A DNA stretch of 64,000 bases from Gallionella sp. (GCA_028689145.1 JAQTWT010000007.1:62001-126000); one strand, 5' to 3'. Counted from the stretch's first letter, positions 8,619 to 46,988 are shown. A program made the numbers and translations. The notes: generated from the letters alone by a model not told the origin.

Positions 8619-9293
8619 TTAGCAACGCGGCGGGGTATCGTCGTCGGCGTTGCCCTGCTCCTTGGCAAACAGGACGGCGGCTTTTACCCGTGAAGACAGA
8701 TTGAGCTTGTTCAGGATGTGGCGAACATGCTGTTTTACGGTGTCGTAGCTGATTTTCAAGGTGAGTGCGATGGCCTTGTTGCTTTCGCCGCGCGACAGTA
8801 ATTGCAGGATTTCCCGCTCGCGCTCGGTGAGCAGTTTGAGCGAGTTCTTCGGGTCTTGCCCGGATTGTTCGTCGCGCAACATTTCGATCATTTTTACCGT
8901 CATGGTGGGCGCGACCACCAGTTCGCCGGCGGCGACGCGGCGGATCGCATCAACCACATCATCCGGTGCCATGTCCTTGAGCAAATAACCGCGCACGCCG
9001 GCACGTATCGCATTCTTCAAATCGACTTCCGAATCGCTCATGGTGAGCATGATGGCGGGCGTCAAATAACCTGCTTTGCGCAGCTGTTCGAGCATGGAAA
9101 TGCCGTCCAGCGGTTTCATGCGCAGATCAATGATGAGCAGATCGGGTTTTTCATCCAGCAATTTGCGCAGTTCGGCGATGTTGTCGGTTGCGCCGAGTAC
9201 GGAGAAGTCATAGCAATTGGCCAGCAGTTCACTCAACCCCCTGCGGCACAGTCCCTGATCGTCGACCAGCACTACCTTCAACTTGTCACTCAT
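8619..9293 (-). CDS. NarL/LuxR-family response regulator
   Basis: REC domain (VVLVDDQGLCRRG..LLIIDLRM..) plus LuxR HTH (LTEREREILQLLSRGESNKAIALTLKISYDTVKQHVRHIL); start at ATG 9293. Confidence 0.93.
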   Translation of the reverse strand: MSDKLKVVLVDDQGLCRRGLSELLANCYDFSVLGATDNIAELRKLLDEKPDLLIIDLRMKPLDGISMLEQLRKAGYLTPAIMLTMSDSEVDLKNAIRAGVRGYLLKDMAPDDVVDAIRRVAAGELVVAPTMTVKMIEMLRDEQSGQDPKNSLKLLTEREREILQLLSRGESNKAIALTLKISYDTVKQHVRHILNKLNLSSRVKAAVLFAKEQGNADDDTPPRC

Positions 9294-10521
9294 TTGCCGC
9301 TCTCCAGTCCAACGATGGTTCGGGAAAAAATAACTGCACCTGTGTGCCCAGCCCCGCGGCACTTTCAGTTTTGATTTTACCTCCTATCCGGTGCGCACGC
9401 TCGCGCATGATTATCATGCCGTAATGGCCTTCTACCGGTGTGAAAGTGCAGGCACCGCTACCGTTGTCTTCAATGGTGAAAATGTAGTAGCCGAAGCGTT
9501 CGTCGACAAAGACCCGCGCATGGGTGGCACCGGAATGTTTTGCGATGTTGTTTAGTGCCTCATGCACAATGTGGTAAACCTGAATCTCGTGTTCCAGCGG
9601 CAATTCGAGATCGACCAGCCGGTTGTGATATTCGAGCAGGATATTGTTGCGTTTGCGGAACTCGGCGGTGATGTCGTTCAGTGCCGCCAGCAATCCCCCC
9701 TTGTTCATTTCACAGCGAAAGTCGGTGATGAGCTCGCGCACGCTCTTTTGCCCGGTCTCCAGCGCCTCATCCAAATCGCAGGCATATTCGGTGGCCATTG
9801 ATTCGTTGCCGGAGCGGATAGCCTCAAGTAGCAGGCTGACGCGCATGCGGGTGTAGGTCAGCGTTTGCGCCAGCGAGTCGTGGATATCGTTGGCGATCAC
9901 CTGGCGCGCAGCCAGTCGTTCGATGCGCCGGGCTTCGCGATTGATATGGGTGTGGTCGATGGTGGCGCTCATCACTTCGGCAAAAGCCGCTACGGTATTC
10001 ATGGCTTGGCTTGCCGCTTCGCGCGGCACGTCGAAGAAGACGGTTAAAATACCCAGCGGGGTATCGGACGAATTGGCGACATCCAGCGGGGCGGCTATCA
10101 GGGACTGGAAACGGCAGCTGGCATAGCGGCAACTCTGCCGCGAGTTGCACGCACTGATGTCGGAGGCGTGGACAATATGGTCGAAGGCGGCGTTTTCGCT
10201 GGCTTCGCATTCCAGTTCGATAAAGCTTTCCGCTTCTTCCTGCAGTTCTGCGGAGAGTCCCGCCGAGCTGATGATTTGCAGGGTGCGCCCATCCGGGGAA
10301 AGTAGCCGCACTACGCCTGCGGTCGCATTGACCGTGCCGATAATACTTTCCAGAAAAGTTTCCAGCAGCGTCCTAAGTTCGCCAGTACGCTGAGCGGTAA
10401 ATTCATGCGACAGGCAAACATTTACGCCGCCATCATTGCCGGGGGGAATGAAGTCCGGATCGCGTACCCACGAAAAGCCGTTGTGGCTGGTATCGGGGAT
10501 GGGAATCGTTTTCTTTTTCAT
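9286..10521 (-). CDS. NarX-like sensor histidine kinase with GAF-type module and Cys cluster
   Basis: HisKA_3 box (IANDIHDSLAQTLTYTRMRVSLL), HATPase N box, GAF-like segment with CNSRQSCRYASC; RBS AGGAGC before ATG 10521. Confidence 0.9.
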   Translation of the reverse strand: MKKKTIPIPDTSHNGFSWVRDPDFIPPGNDGGVNVCLSHEFTAQRTGELRTLLETFLESIIGTVNATAGVVRLLSPDGRTLQIISSAGLSAELQEEAESFIELECEASENAAFDHIVHASDISACNSRQSCRYASCRFQSLIAAPLDVANSSDTPLGILTVFFDVPREAASQAMNTVAAFAEVMSATIDHTHINREARRIERLAARQVIANDIHDSLAQTLTYTRMRVSLLLEAIRSGNESMATEYACDLDEALETGQKSVRELITDFRCEMNKGGLLAALNDITAEFRKRNNILLEYHNRLVDLELPLEHEIQVYHIVHEALNNIAKHSGATHARVFVDERFGYYIFTIEDNGSGACTFTPVEGHYGMIIMRERAHRIGGKIKTESAAGLGTQVQLFFPEPSLDWRAANE

Positions 10522-10623
10522 TAACTTTGGTGCTCCTTTCACCCAAAACATTCCGCAGACTAAGTCGAATTCCTTAAAATATCAACAAGCTAAATCGCTG
10601 AGACGGAATAAATCAGGTTTTGT

Positions 10624-10670
10624 CACCCGTCGGGGTTATAGCGCCACTTACCCGATATGGCTATAGACAA
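10624..10670 (+). promoter_or_regulatory. candidate sulfur-regulon motif, site E (between kinase and phosphoesterase genes)
   Basis: cacccgtcgGGGTTATagcgccacttacccGATATGGctatagaca, nearly superimposable on site A. Confidence 0.5.
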
Positions 10671-40967: not shown

Positions 40968-41843
40968 TCATGCTGATTCAGCGATCTTGTCCAGATAACG
41001 CGCACGATACATCAAACGCGGGCTGGTCGGATTATCGTTAAAAGCGGCACGGTCATGCAGCACGTTGTTGCACAACAAGCCCATGCCGGGTTCGAGGCTG
41101 GACTGAAAGATGTAGGGGGTGCCGGATGCCAGCAGGCGTTCCAATGCCGAGACTGCCGCTAATGTTGCTGCATCCTGTTTCCATTCGATGCTGCGGGTGC
41201 GCGCGGTGTAGCGCATGTGCAAATTTCCGGATATATCCAGCGAGAACACCGGGCCGCACTGCGCGGGACGCACGCCGTCTGTCTCGTCCAGTCGTTCCGG
41301 GATGGTCATTGCATCCGCTTGCATCAGCGCTTTTATGTGTTGCGGATCTTCGTCGCGCAGCAGCAAGTAAGCCATCTCGTGATCCATCAGGCGATTCTCA
41401 CCGCCGTCGGCAGCGTTGCGCACACAATGCAACACCATGCCGCGTATCTGGCGCTGCGGCGGGTTGTAATAGCCGTCGGTGTGCCATTTGATCGGTCGGT
41501 CGGTGTAGGGGATGTAAAATTTGCGTGTGCCGCCGTCGAACACGCGAATTTCGGAAACCCCGTCTTCGCCGGACAACCAGTTGGCATCGAGCTGTTTCAG
41601 ACCGAATTGTGCGCCCAGCAGACGCGGGATGTCGGTGTCCTCCGCCTGTATTGTGCCGGCATAGATCGCCATGTTGCAGCGGCGGATACATGCTGCCAGT
41701 GCGGAACGTTCGTTTGGCTTCAGTGCGCGCGGGTCGCGAACTTCGACGATCAATTCATCTGCTGAAGCGGGGGCCGCAGCGAGTTTTTGTTCGCGCCAGC
41801 GCAGGTAACTTGTACTATCGTTAAGATCGAACGGGTTGTTCAT
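40968..41843 (-). CDS. TauD/TfdA-like dioxygenase
   Basis: IKWHTDGYYNPP...LHCVRNAADGGENRLMDHE; C-terminal LLCNNVLHDRAAFNDN. Confidence 0.85.
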   Translation of the reverse strand: MNNPFDLNDSTSYLRWREQKLAAAPASADELIVEVRDPRALKPNERSALAACIRRCNMAIYAGTIQAEDTDIPRLLGAQFGLKQLDANWLSGEDGVSEIRVFDGGTRKFYIPYTDRPIKWHTDGYYNPPQRQIRGMVLHCVRNAADGGENRLMDHEMAYLLLRDEDPQHIKALMQADAMTIPERLDETDGVRPAQCGPVFSLDISGNLHMRYTARTRSIEWKQDAATLAAVSALERLLASGTPYIFQSSLEPGMGLLCNNVLHDRAAFNDNPTSPRLMYRARYLDKIAESA

Positions 41844-42440
41844 TTACTCTCCGCCAGCAGAGGCATGACGGCGCGGTTTTCTTGGTTCGGTTTCGTTAAG
41901 GTCGCGCAGGGTTTTTTCGACCATTTCCACCGCTTCCGGTGCTTCAAAGCTGATTATCTGGTCGATGATCCAGCGGCTGTCCGCATCGGTCATGATTTCA
42001 CCGATGCACCAGGCGAGGTAGCGATAGAAGCCGTAATCCGGGCCGTTTTCGTCGTAGTCGAACTCGGCATATTCGCCCGAGCGCTGGTTGAGCAAGTCGA
42101 TGAAGCGTTTTTTGCATTCCTTCAGGTCATCGGCGAGCAGACGGCTGCGGTTTTCGGCGTAGGTTTCTGCGACGCGATTCCCCAGATTCGCGGTGAATAT
42201 GAGCCGGTCTTCAGCGGAAAGTTGGCGGTAAGCAATACGGTCGGCAACCAGAATGAGAAACAGCAGGAACTCGGCAAGGAAATCGAAATACTGTGCGCCG
42301 GCTTCGATTTCGAAATTTGCCTGGCGTGTATTTTTTAGCGCGTTGTAGGCGATGCGCGAAACGACAAACGATAACGCATCCGAGATTTCCTGCGGAGAGT
42401 GTTCGCGGCCATCCTTGAACCAGTGACTTTTGATGCGCAA
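41844..42440 (-). CDS. hypothetical protein
   Basis: 198-aa ORF between TauD-like and TusA-tandem genes. Confidence 0.65.
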   Translation of the reverse strand: MRIKSHWFKDGREHSPQEISDALSFVVSRIAYNALKNTRQANFEIEAGAQYFDFLAEFLLFLILVADRIAYRQLSAEDRLIFTANLGNRVAETYAENRSRLLADDLKECKKRFIDLLNQRSGEYAEFDYDENGPDYGFYRYLAWCIGEIMTDADSRWIIDQIISFEAPEAVEMVEKTLRDLNETEPRKPRRHASAGGE

Positions 42441-42443
42441 CGC

Positions 42444-42917
42444 TCAGCCTTTTCGGATATAAAATTCGTGCACATTCGGCGCGGCCTCAACGGTTTCCAG
42501 CACGGTCATGCCCGTGGCGGAAGCCCAGCCGCCGATGTCTGACTGCACACCGGGACAATCGCTGATCAGTTTCAACACCTCGCCGGTTTGCATTCCATTC
42601 AGCAGTTTTTTTGCCTCAACAATGGGGCCAGGGCAGACTGCACCGCGTATATCCAGTGTGACATTGGCATTGTGGGCATGCCCTTTGCCTTTCTGGATGT
42701 GAAAGCCGGTTCCGCCGTCGGGCATTCTTTCGGTCTTCAGTATCCGGTTGCCGGTCTGTTGTGCCCATGCGAAAAGGTCGTCCTCTGTACCGGGACAATC
42801 CGATACCAGCAAGAGCACTTGTCCAGCGACAAGTTCATCCACCATGCGTTTTGCGCCGATGAGCGGTCTGGGGCAGGAGAGCCCCTTCATATCGAGTACT
42901 ACGTTAACCATATCCAT
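42444..42917 (-). CDS. tandem TusA-domain protein
   Basis: Two TusA motifs: DMKGLSCPRPLIGAKRMVDEL and DIRGAVCPGPIVEAKKLLNGM. Confidence 0.92.
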   Translation of the reverse strand: MDMVNVVLDMKGLSCPRPLIGAKRMVDELVAGQVLLLVSDCPGTEDDLFAWAQQTGNRILKTERMPDGGTGFHIQKGKGHAHNANVTLDIRGAVCPGPIVEAKKLLNGMQTGEVLKLISDCPGVQSDIGGWASATGMTVLETVEAAPNVHEFYIRKG

Positions 42918-43058
42918 TGTTTTATCTCCTTAAATCCTGAAAAAAGTAGTTGTCTGCGCAATGAATGGGCGTACCGGTGAAAGTATCAGTATAACAATGC
43001 AACTTAATTTACCGGTTCGTGCCATTTGTATTTTTGCGGATCAATCGGTTTTTTGGGG

Positions 43059-43388
43059 TTAATACCCGCCCTTGCCCAGCGGTTGCGGCAACCCGGCCAC
43101 TTTTGCGGCCTGCTTCGCTGGGCCTATCGGAAACAGGTCATACAACGCCTTGCTGTCCGCTTCCGGCCAGAACTCGTTGATGCCTTTCAGCATATTGCGG
43201 AAGTTCGGCGTGTGCCCGTGTTCGCGGTGTTGCTCGCGCATGTAATTGATGACTTCCCAGTGTTTTGGGGTCAGTTCGATGCCTTCCGCAGCGGCGATCA
43301 CGCCGACTACTTCTTCGCTGTAATCCGGCTCCAGCAGATAGCCTTCCGCATCGGTCTCGAGTTCATTGCCTGCCACTGTGTATCCCAT
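43059..43388 (-). CDS. DsrC/TusE-like paralog lacking C-terminal cysteines
   Basis: LTPKHWEVINYMREQHREHGHTPNFRNMLKGI...FPIGPAKQAAKVAGLPQPLGKGGY. Confidence 0.92.
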   Translation of the reverse strand: MGYTVAGNELETDAEGYLLEPDYSEEVVGVIAAAEGIELTPKHWEVINYMREQHREHGHTPNFRNMLKGINEFWPEADSKALYDLFPIGPAKQAAKVAGLPQPLGKGGY

Positions 43389-43427
43389 TCTCTTCCTCCA
43401 TCGGTTAATGAAAATTTCGCAGTGCCA

Positions 43428-44030
43428 TCAGTCCAGATCGGAGATGACTTTGTAGGGTATAAAAATACCGCAACCGAATCGGCGCTCGCCCCCCAATCCG
43501 GTGTATTGCAAACGCAGTGAAGCGTCCGGCTTGAGGTCATGGATCACCAGGCTATAGCCATGAATTGCGCGATCCGCGGTTGCCACGCAGTTGCGCATGC
43601 CGCAGATGAGTTTCCCGGCGATAGCCAGATCGGCCAATCTGGCTCCGATGTCCTGCAGAAATCCCGCTTCATTTTCGATGCCGGTCACCAGTTGCGCATG
43701 CAGTGTGGAATACGGCGTGATCGGGCGCAGCTTGCAGCTGCCGAGTTGAAGTGTGCCGCCACCGAGGTCGAGCCGCTGGCCGGATAGGGCTGCGATGTGG
43801 GCGGCGAGTGCGGCGGGCAGACGTAGCGTTAGTTTGGCGCGCTTCGGCAGCAGCATCCCCGCCGCGCTGGCAGAGGTGCGCAGCGGTATGACACCGACGC
43901 TGGCATCCGCTGCGAGCGTCGGAACATGGAGTACCAGCGCATCCCACAGCGCAAAGGGGTAGCTGGCGGGCAACATGTCGCCGCTGATATCGAAAACAGC
44001 GTCGATCATCTCGGGGATGGTATCGGTCAT
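43428..44030 (-). CDS. Cas6/Cmx6-like RAMP-fold protein (standalone)
   Basis: ALWDALVLHVP..., LRLQYTGLGGERRFGCGIFIPYK glycine-rich C-terminal loop; start at ATG 44030. Confidence 0.65.
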   Translation of the reverse strand: MTDTIPEMIDAVFDISGDMLPASYPFALWDALVLHVPTLAADASVGVIPLRTSASAAGMLLPKRAKLTLRLPAALAAHIAALSGQRLDLGGGTLQLGSCKLRPITPYSTLHAQLVTGIENEAGFLQDIGARLADLAIAGKLICGMRNCVATADRAIHGYSLVIHDLKPDASLRLQYTGLGGERRFGCGIFIPYKVISDLD

Positions 44031-44263
44031 TTTGATACTGCATCCGGCATAATGGTGTCCTGTGTGGCGGCCCAGTCTTGCATGGCATGAGCCCATTGTT
44101 CGGCGGTAGCGGGGTCGATGTCGAAGATGGTGAAGCGTTTGCCCTCGCGGATGCGGATGCGCAACAGGCTCATGCCGCCTTCGGCATGGTCGATTTGCTG
44201 CAACTCGATCTCTTGTCCTCCCAGAGGAACTTTGAATTTCGCCAACCCGCTAATTTGCGCCAT
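44027..44263 (-). CDS. small hypothetical protein (DUF6967-like)
   Basis: MAQISGLAKFKVPLGGQEIELQQIDHAEGGMSLLRIRIREGKRFTIFDIDPATAEQWAHAM; ATGA-coupled to the Cas6-like gene. Confidence 0.6.
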   Translation of the reverse strand: MAQISGLAKFKVPLGGQEIELQQIDHAEGGMSLLRIRIREGKRFTIFDIDPATAEQWAHAMQDWAATQDTIMPDAVSK

Positions 44264-44357: not shown

Positions 44358-44406
44358 CACCACCCGTTAGGGTTATAAAAAATAGCCGCTACGGGTGATG
44401 GTTAGC
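44358..44406 (+). promoter_or_regulatory. candidate sulfur-regulon motif, site C (dsrA / Cas6-like divergent region)
   Basis: accacccgttaGGGTTATaaaaaatagccgctacGGGTGATGG. Confidence 0.4.
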
Positions 44407-44583: not shown

Positions 44584-45879
44584 ATGGCGAAGAAACTGCA
44601 TGACACTCCCAACCTCGATCAGCTTGAGGGCGGCCCGTGGCCCAGTTTTGTGACCGGTCTGAAGGCCTTGGCCAAGGACAAGGATTACGTGGTGGATCTG
44701 TTGGGCCAGCTGGAAGAGTCCTATAAAACCCGCAAAGGATACTGGAAGGGCGGCACGGTCGGCGTGTTCGGCTACGGCGGCGGGGTGATCCCGCGTTTTA
44801 CCGAACTCAAGGATGAAGACGGCAAGCCTGTTTACAAGGATTGTGCGGAGTTTCATACCCTGCGCATTATGCCTCCGCCTGGCATGCACTACGATACCGC
44901 TACATTGCGCCAATTCTGCGACATTTGGGAAAAACACGGCTCCGGGTTGATTGCGTTGCATGGTCAGTCCGGCGACATCATGTTTCAGGGCGCGACTACC
45001 GAGAACGTGCAAACTGCCTTCGATGAATTTAACGAAATGGGTTTCGATCTCGGCGGAGCGGGGCCGGCAGTGCGTACTTCGATGTCCTGCGTGGGCGCTG
45101 CGCGCTGCGAGCAGTCCTGCTACGACGAAGCACAAGCGCATCGCGCAGTGCTGAATACCTTCCTGGACGACATTCACCGCCCTTCGCTGCCGTACAAATT
45201 TAAGTTCAAGTTTTCCGGTTGCCCGAACGACTGCATGAACTCGGTGCAACGCGCCGACATGGCGGTGATCGGCACATGGCGCGACAACATCCGCACCGAC
45301 GAGGCGCTGGCGAAAAAGTGGTTTGTCAAACACGGCATGGACGAGCTGGTGAACGACGTGGTGGCACGCTGCCCGACCAAGACCTTCCAGGTCAAGGAGA
45401 TCAAGAAGATCAAGGCTGGTGAGCATATCTCCAGCGTGGCGGTGAGCGACACCCATGCGGTCGAGATCAACAACCAGGACTGCGTGCGCTGCATGCACTG
45501 CATCAACGTGATGACCGGCGCTTTGGCAACCGGCACCGACAAGGGCGCGACCGTGCTGGTCGGAGGCAAGAGCCACCTGAAAATCGGCGGCCTGATGGGT
45601 ACCGTGGTCATTCCGTTTATCAAACTGGATACCGAAGAGAACGTCGAAAAGCTGGTCGATTTCGCCCAGCGCACCATCGACTTTTTTGCCGAGAACGCGC
45701 TGGAGCATGAACGCACCGGCGAGATGATCGAGCGTATCGGTCTGTCCAACTTCCTCGATGCGATGGAAATCGACGTCGATCCCGCGATGGTCAATTCGCC
45801 GCGCATGAATCCCTATGTCCGTACCGACGGCTGGGATGACGAAGTTGCCAAGATTAATGCCAAGAAGCAAGCCGCCTGA
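44584..45879 (+). CDS. dsrA: reverse dissimilatory sulfite reductase alpha
   Basis: CxxxxxC siroheme motif CVGAARCEQSCYDE, GCPNDCMNSVQRADMAVIGTW, ferredoxin CVRCMHCINVM. Confidence 0.97.
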   Translation: MAKKLHDTPNLDQLEGGPWPSFVTGLKALAKDKDYVVDLLGQLEESYKTRKGYWKGGTVGVFGYGGGVIPRFTELKDEDGKPVYKDCAEFHTLRIMPPPGMHYDTATLRQFCDIWEKHGSGLIALHGQSGDIMFQGATTENVQTAFDEFNEMGFDLGGAGPAVRTSMSCVGAARCEQSCYDEAQAHRAVLNTFLDDIHRPSLPYKFKFKFSGCPNDCMNSVQRADMAVIGTWRDNIRTDEALAKKWFVKHGMDELVNDVVARCPTKTFQVKEIKKIKAGEHISSVAVSDTHAVEINNQDCVRCMHCINVMTGALATGTDKGATVLVGGKSHLKIGGLMGTVVIPFIKLDTEENVEKLVDFAQRTIDFFAENALEHERTGEMIERIGLSNFLDAMEIDVDPAMVNSPRMNPYVRTDGWDDEVAKINAKKQAA

Positions 45880-45890
45880 GGAGACCGATA

Positions 45891-46988
45891 ATGAATCAAG
45901 CAGTCCAAGCAGCAGCGCCCGTACAAAAGCGCAAGCCAAAAGAAACCGGCGTGCCGGACAACAAGAAGTATCTGCACCCGTTGCTGGCGAAGAACTACGG
46001 CAACTGGAAATACCACGACCGTCCGCGTCCCGGTGTATTGCACCATGTCTCGCACACCGGTGATGAGGTGTGGTCGGTGCGCGCCGGTACGCAGCGTCAG
46101 ATGGACGTGCATACCATTCGCAAACTGTGCGATATCGCCGACAAGTTCGCCGAGAGCAGGGTGCGTTTCACCATCCGCTCCAACATTGAATTCATGGTGT
46201 CGGACGAGAAGAAAGTCGCGCCGCTGATCGCCGAGCTGGAAAAGAGCGGCTTCCCGGTCGGTGGTACCGGCAATTCCGTATCGATGATCGCGCACACCCA
46301 GGGATGGCTGCATTGCGATATTCCCGGCACCGATGCATCCGGCGTGGTGAAGGCGCTGATGGACGAACTGTACGACGAATTCCGGCGCGAAGAGATGCCG
46401 AATCGCGTGCACCTTTCGACTTCCTGCTGCGAGATCAATTGCGGCGGTCAGGCCGACATCGCCATTATTGTGCAGCACACCAAACCGCCGGTAATCAATC
46501 ATGATCTGGTCGCCAACGTGTGCGAGCGCCCGACCGTGGTGGCGCGTTGCCCGGTAGCGGCGATCCGTCCCGCGATGGTGAACGGCAAGCCTTCGCTGGA
46601 GATCGACGAAGCCAAATGCATGTGTTGCGGTGCCTGCTATCCACCCTGCCCGCCGATGCAGATCAACGACCCGGAGAATTCCAAGCTGGCGATCTGGGTC
46701 GGCGGCAAGAATTCCAACGCACGCGGCAAGCCGACCTTCATGAAGATGGTTGCCTCCGGTCTGCCGAACAACGCGCCGCGCTGGCCCGAAGTTGCCGAAG
46801 CGGTGAAGAACATCATTCACGTGTACAAGGAAGATGCCCGTCCGTGGGAGCGTATGGCCGACTGGATTGAACGCATCGGCTGGCCGCGCTTCTTCGAGAA
46901 GACCGGGCTGCCGTTCACCAAGTACCTGATTGACGATTGGCGCGGTTCGCGTGCCAACCTGAACGCTTCGACGCATATCCGTTTCTGA
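45891..46988 (+). CDS. dsrB: reverse dissimilatory sulfite reductase beta
   Basis: HLSTSCCEINCGGQADIAIIVQHTKPP; CMCCGACYPPCPPMQ. Confidence 0.97.
   Translation: MNQAVQAAAPVQKRKPKETGVPDNKKYLHPLLAKNYGNWKYHDRPRPGVLHHVSHTGDEVWSVRAGTQRQMDVHTIRKLCDIADKFAESRVRFTIRSNIEFMVSDEKKVAPLIAELEKSGFPVGGTGNSVSMIAHTQGWLHCDIPGTDASGVVKALMDELYDEFRREEMPNRVHLSTSCCEINCGGQADIAIIVQHTKPPVINHDLVANVCERPTVVARCPVAAIRPAMVNGKPSLEIDEAKCMCCGACYPPCPPMQINDPENSKLAIWVGGKNSNARGKPTFMKMVASGLPNNAPRWPEVAEAVKNIIHVYKEDARPWERMADWIERIGWPRFFEKTGLPFTKYLIDDWRGSRANLNASTHIRF

Follow-up and report, generated by a model that had tools for sequence, protein, structure and literature searches.

A Cas6-fold protein in a conserved gene module divergent from dsrAB in sulfur-oxidizing Proteobacteria

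Background

Cas proteins taken out of their CRISPR (clustered regularly interspaced short palindromic repeats) setting are known in general. The case considered here is a Cas6-fold protein of 200 amino acids, P0001, encoded beside dsrAB in a stretch of 64,000 nucleotides from Gallionella sp. (GCA_028689145.1 JAQTWT010000007.1:62001-126000). This stretch is referred to as the window, and window coordinates are counted within it. The protein resembles the Cas6/Cmx6 proteins of type I-MYXAN CRISPR systems in its profile family, where it scores above the cut-off, in its fold and in a glycine-rich loop. However, the window locus is without a cas operon and no array was found nearby. Furthermore, the dsr-linked proteins (dsr type) are acidic or neutral whereas the CRISPR-linked proteins (CRISPR type) are basic, and the two fall into separate groups at 100/99 support. 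The closest solved structure is the Cas6 of a type I-B CRISPR-associated transposon (CAST; 8fcj/8fcu), with a template modelling (TM) score of 0.85 and ~25% identity. That protein is part of a Cascade complex, whereas the window locus encodes no Cascade genes.

Among sulfur systems, the oxidative dsr cluster of the Allochromatium/Thiobacillus type (dsrABEFHCMKLJOPN) is the closest described relation, and the gene module containing Cas6 is its divergent neighbour, co-occurring with dsrA. A Cas6 protein is not mentioned in the descriptions of this cluster that were searched (PMC3368242, PMC5944118, PMC11406059, PMC10504309). The module also encodes a paralogue of the DsrC/TusE relay proteins, with which it shares PF04358. 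However, this paralogue ends in KGGY and has neither of the C-terminal cysteines by which DsrC function is defined. The open full-text literature, outside of which most subscription journals fall, yielded no account linking Cas6 to dsr, DsrC or TusA, including under DUF6967 and orphan Cas6, and the occurrence of Cas6 in dissimilatory sulfur metabolism appears to be undescribed. In animal symbioses as well as in sediments and aquifers, oxidative dsr is a main sulfur-oxidation route, and some of its conserved genes are still without an assigned role. The dsr-type Cas6 offers a testable entry point into the role of this module.

Family and fold of the Cas6-like protein

P0001 scores 176.7 bits against PF09559 (Cas6; curated cut-off 26.7) and 140.9 bits against TIGR02807 (Cas6/Cmx6; curated cut-off 98.85). 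Because it lies above both cut-offs it would be named automatically as a type I-MYXAN CRISPR protein, and such annotation of dsr-type Cas6 misleads at scale. An AlphaFold model based on an alignment of 38 relatives has a mean predicted local distance difference test (pLDDT) value of 90.7 and consists of two ferredoxin-like domains with a Gly-rich loop. The RAMP/Cas6 fold supposed in an earlier reading of the sequence alone (the sequence-only reading) is thus predicted by the model. In a Foldseek comparison the top match in the PDB is the CAST Cas6 noted above, and the first 46 matches are all CRISPR proteins, nearly all of them Cas6.

A tree of 60 proteins separates dsr-linked from CRISPR-linked Cas6 with the support given above, although its CRISPR side consists only of seven cyanobacterial plasmid proteins and is not a full survey. 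This split is consistent with a single exaptation.

Association with dsrA

Among 399 genomes of the window's order PF09559 occurs in 80, in a single copy each. Strong matches to dsrA (TIGR02064) occur in 87 of the 399, including every one of the 80 Cas6 carriers (Fisher p 2e-76). In a class-level set of 369 genomes PF09559 was found in 118 and dsrA in 118, with 111 carrying both (Fisher p 5e-76). Because of relatedness among the sampled genomes, these p-values exaggerate how many independent events lie behind them. A draw of 299 genomes from the phylum contained only four with PF09559, each belonging to the order of the window. Among other named organisms, the locus is found in Thiobacillus, Sulfuricella, Sulfurimicrobium, Sulfuriferula and Hydrogenophilus.

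The genomic context is also well conserved. At 80 loci of the order, inspected for ~8 kb on each side where the contig was long enough, synteny is conserved, as it is at most of 80 class loci, in line with the conservation check that the sequence-only reading had proposed. The order loci have a DsrC-family gene in all 80 cases, a gene for a helical protein of 198 amino acids (hyp198) in 77, dsrA in 76, DUF6967 in 69, TauD in 62 and TusA2 in 32. At class loci the usual arrangement is dsrA divergent from TauD, followed by Cas6, the DsrC paralogue and hyp198. Based on fold, synteny, co-occurrence and phylogeny, there is strong support for the earlier proposal that, outside CRISPR, a Cas6/RAMP protein has been recruited to sulfur genes linked to dsr, and we regard its exaptation into a dsr accessory module as nearly certain.

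Several carriers have small genomes. Five of 1.0–1.1 Mb (G437, G683, G539, G651, G746) have no Cas1 and keep dsrA with the Cas6 gene alongside. Retention in genomes of this size argues for a useful function, and these carriers are inferred to be symbionts. Since Cas6 tracks dsrA and not Cas1 in many families and persists in ~1-Mb genomes, the pattern points to a CRISPR protein domesticated for energy metabolism.

Two genomes of 1.4–1.5 Mb, G506 (locus L275) and G720 (L273), have a dsr-type Cas6 gene located away from dsrA. There it lies between a conserved gene and what reads as an RNase III-like gene, with an era-like gene beyond.

CRISPR context

A different account of these genes is that each is an orphan Cas6 acting in trans for a CRISPR array, or what is left of a decaying CRISPR system. 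The family is of CRISPR origin, and Cas1 is present somewhere in 27 of the 79 order carriers. However, the other 52 of the 79 are without Cas1, and the presence of Cas6 tracks dsrA instead. The carriers without Cas1 include genomes in a single contig (G182, G221, G264, G150, G417, G432, G442, G478, G480, G529, G707 and G506), as well as the reduced genomes described above. In the class, Cas1 was found in 19 of the 40 genomes tested, 39 of these 40 being Cas6 carriers. The Cas6 reading frame is intact at nearly all hits in order and class genomes, which also speaks against decay.

The neighbourhoods offer no support for a CRISPR role. Arrays were sought with a simple finder, which recovered those of two cyanobacterial controls, in the window and in ~8 kb around related loci. 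None was present in the window and none was convincing near the 160 dsr-type loci, where the finder gave a single weak match, of three copies, at the L272 edge. In tblastn searches, no neighbour at these 160 loci resembled the MYXAN cas3, cmx8, cas7, cas5, cas1 or cas2. The same searches matched MYXAN cas neighbours beside the cyanobacterial relatives used as a control, six of seven of which adjoin cas3. For the window and the neighbourhoods, the earlier statement that there is no CRISPR array or other cas gene is therefore upheld. In the host genome, which is 2.74 Mb in size and 96.7% complete, neither Cas1 nor a PF10040 Cas6 was found, and no Cas3 exceeded its cut-off (102 bits, with all matches <54). 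Nor was there a Cas3 over the cut-off in 19 carriers without Cas1. Sub-cut-off Cas3 matches are present in every genome, as expected of other helicases. Taken together, and with arrays sought in the window and within ~8 kb of the related loci, the orphan or remnant explanation, including one with an unlinked array elsewhere in the genome, is very unlikely.

No dsr-type Cas6 was found in viral contigs or phages. At locus L113, on the Gloeobacter morelensis plasmid pGMOR1, the neighbours of a Cas6/Cmx6 protein are hypothetical proteins, a cupin protein and a member of the PAPS-reductase family, and neither cas3 nor another cas gene is annotated in the stretch. This is possibly another non-CRISPR use.

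Conserved residues, charge and possible function

Residues R70 and Q175 and the loop G178-G180-R183-G186-C187-G188 are kept in both dsr-type and CRISPR-type Cas6. Another set, R64, E121, G144 and H193-K194, is found only in the dsr type and is absent from the CRISPR relatives. At position 24, 131 of 160 dsr-type proteins and all seven CRISPR relatives have His. Because helix 1 begins here, His24 is a candidate catalytic residue. The window protein and 20 other members of the order have Tyr instead, and the window protein carries Tyr at position 193 as well, where most relatives have His.

Sequence and predicted structure show a Cas6-fold protein that left CRISPR, probably once and long ago, and is now a regular companion of the oxidative dsr genes of Beta- and Gammaproteobacteria, encoded divergently from dsrAB. 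Its company in the module is DUF6967 (in beta lineages), the cysteine-free DsrC paralogue, TauD and the helical protein, with TusA or rhodanese proteins joining in some lineages. The sequence-only reading had proposed RNA thiolation or processing, or control of dsr expression, as possible roles. Within the module, the Gly-rich RAMP loop may bind a cellular RNA. This RNA would be cut where the candidate His24 is kept, and bound uncut where the residue is Tyr, as in the window lineage. DUF6967, whose gene overlaps that of Cas6, and the cysteine-free DsrC paralogue are guesses as partners, and the identity of the RNA is likewise a guess. The effect would be a post-transcriptional tuning of sulfur oxidation. 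We give binding of a cellular RNA within the dsr module, as judged from sequence features, slightly less than an even chance. The fuller proposal is that Cas6 was exapted once, early in the sulfur-oxidizing Proteobacteria, into an RNA–protein regulatory or maturation complex that also contains DUF6967 and the redox-dead DsrC and governs how much dissimilatory sulfur oxidation delivers. This is rather unlikely in its entirety.

Several observations weigh against RNA binding or cutting. His24 is missing from 29 of the 160 dsr-type proteins, so cutting cannot be the common function. The CAST Cas6 carries Asn at the aligned position, which leaves the catalytic role of His24 a guess. Net charge falls from +7 in the CRISPR type to -1 in beta and -2 in gamma proteins, and the isoelectric point from 9.4 to 6.75 and 6.4, respectively (E. 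coli CasE, 9.6). However, in the Gly-loop and tail region the local charge is retained (+2 to +3, compared with +3). With the net charge lowered and the local charge kept, it is doubtful that RNA is bound strongly and in general, but one particular RNA may be bound locally. No RNA target was found for the dsr-type Cas6, and an Rfam search of window positions 36–50 kb gave no match near threshold.

Much of this evidence can also be accommodated if the Cas6 fold now serves as a protein-binding scaffold, or as an unrelated sulfur-trafficking enzyme, and binds no RNA at all. The loss of net positive charge would be explained, as would the retention of the gene in lineages that have lost His24. The invariant residues specific to the dsr type and the sulfur-carrier genes that keep it company point the same way, and DUF6967, the cysteine-free DsrC paralogue, TusA or DsrAB/DsrC would be candidate ligands. 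However, the RAMP loop has kept both its glycines and a local positive charge, and the fold is still close to that of a Cas6 from a Cascade complex. A scaffold or enzyme of this kind is a real possibility, although we consider it somewhat improbable.

Cas6 is the fastest-changing protein of the module, with 47–61% identity among near relatives for which DsrA is ~90% identical. Some module loci are without it (G217, G277 and G306, which belong to one genus, and G083 and G132), which also weighs against the RNA-binding proposal. Rapid change and loss at a few loci could indicate that selection on the gene is weak and that the divergent operon merely carries it along as a passenger. However, the Gly loop and R64, R70 and E121 are invariant across divergent lineages, and the gene has been retained in many families and in reduced genomes, making a mere passenger very unlikely. 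Fast evolution combined with loss from a few modules instead suggests that Cas6 is probably modulatory, and not indispensable, in free-living hosts.

The palindrome upstream of dsrA

The region between the divergent promoters contains a palindromic element of the form ACCC-N4-GGGT(AG) in beta and TATCCC-N4-GGGATA in gamma loci. In a survey of the dsrA-divergent intergenic regions of 140 loci from the order and class sets, compared with dinucleotide shuffles, the element was found at 37 of 79 beta loci (0.4 expected) and 25 of 61 gamma loci (1.0 expected). With its short stem and four-base loop it resembles MYXAN repeats, and it was for this reason tested as a Cas6 RNA target. Cas6 would in that case control dsr expression by recognizing the hairpin as RNA, in the manner of a CRISPR repeat. 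The strong enrichment of the element, the short GC stem and four-base loop of the relatives' CRISPR repeats, and the absence of the element from 9 of 11 standalone second dsrA copies are all compatible with this idea.

Other features of the element are not. It lies ~75 nucleotides upstream of what reads as a promoter-like TAnnAT box in the dsrA sense. Mismatches in the gamma palindromes show no clear RNA strand bias (GU 26, AC 19), and the bias seen in beta comes largely from one flanking column. Four of the five module loci without Cas6 keep the palindrome. Finally, the sequence ACCCNNNNGGGTTATA occurs exactly twice in the host genome, beside dsrA and at window position 10625, and the latter copy is just upstream of an operon encoding a histidine kinase and a LuxR/NarL-type response regulator. 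Due to its position, mismatches, presence at Cas6-less loci and second genomic copy, the hairpin is disfavoured as an RNA target, and control of dsr by Cas6 through this element is very improbable.

The palindrome is best read, from sequence and position, as a DNA operator of the NarL-type two-component system, which would control both dsr and itself. That this system and dsr share the only two copies of ACCCNNNNGGGTTATA suggests a direct regulator of this kind. Homologues of the response regulator are found in the module neighbourhood of other species.

Gene layout and module partners

The coordinates of the locus and of the two-component system are collected in Table 1. All six minus-strand genes between 40968 and 44263 were recovered at the positions first reported for them, and the run is indeed divergent from dsrA, whose ATG is at 44587. 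The ATGA overlap described between the first two genes is genuine, with the Cas6 ATG at 44030-44028 and the DUF6967 TGA at 44029-44027.

Table 1. Positions of dsr-module genes, palindromic elements and the two-component system in the window
Feature	Position	Strand	Basis
DUF6967 small protein, 78 amino acids, first gene of divergent operon	44027..44263	-	PF22295, 109.6 bits
Cas6-fold (RAMP) protein P0001, 200 amino acids, dsr-linked branch of PF09559/TIGR02807	43428..44030	-	profiles, AlphaFold (AF2), Foldseek
DsrC-family paralogue, no cysteines, C-terminus GKGGY, presumed redox-inactive	43059..43388	-	PF04358, 112.7 bits
TusA-TusA tandem two-domain protein	42444..42917	-	PF01206, two stretches, 127.6 bits
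All-helical protein of 198 amino acids (hyp198), no known family or fold	41844..42440	-	AF2, pLDDT 87
TauD-family (Fe/2OG) dioxygenase	40968..41843	-	PF02668, 66.9 bits
dsrA	44587..45879	+	TIGR02064, 488 bits
dsrB	45891..46988	+	open reading frame after dsrA; same-place homologues at 75/80 order loci
Palindromic element ACCC-N4-GGGTTATA, between divergent promoters	44362..44377	.	read as DNA operator
Second ACCC-N4-GGGTTATA copy, only other in genome, upstream of histidine kinase	10625..10640		
Histidine kinase (HisKA_3), candidate partner of operator-binding regulator	9286..10551	-	PF07730, PF02518
LuxR/NarL-type response regulator, candidate dsr regulator	8619..9362	-	PF00072, PF00196

The DsrC paralogue had been taken as part of a sulfur-carrier system. 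Its membership in the family holds, but the window protein has no cysteine and so cannot be an ordinary sulfur carrier. More widely, the last 16 residues of the module paralogue are without Cys in 125 of 136 proteins, which often end in KGGY, whereas 128 of 131 DsrC proteins from the dsr operon have two cysteines. The paralogue could compete with DsrC or sense it.

The helical protein hyp198 has no match in Pfam or NCBIfam and no fold match in the PDB at E<=0.001, and is a new dsr-linked family. An open reading frame of 64 amino acids precedes Cas6 in 64 class loci. This frame was considered as a DUF6967 homologue in gamma loci, which was not established (hhalign probability 5%). In some order loci the gene following Cas6 reads as a rhodanese-like protein. 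At the three loci of a single genus mentioned above (L277–L279, in G217, G277 and G306), the DsrC paralogue is absent together with Cas6, and DUF6967, hyp198, TauD and tusA are kept, which makes these loci a natural comparison for modules with both genes.

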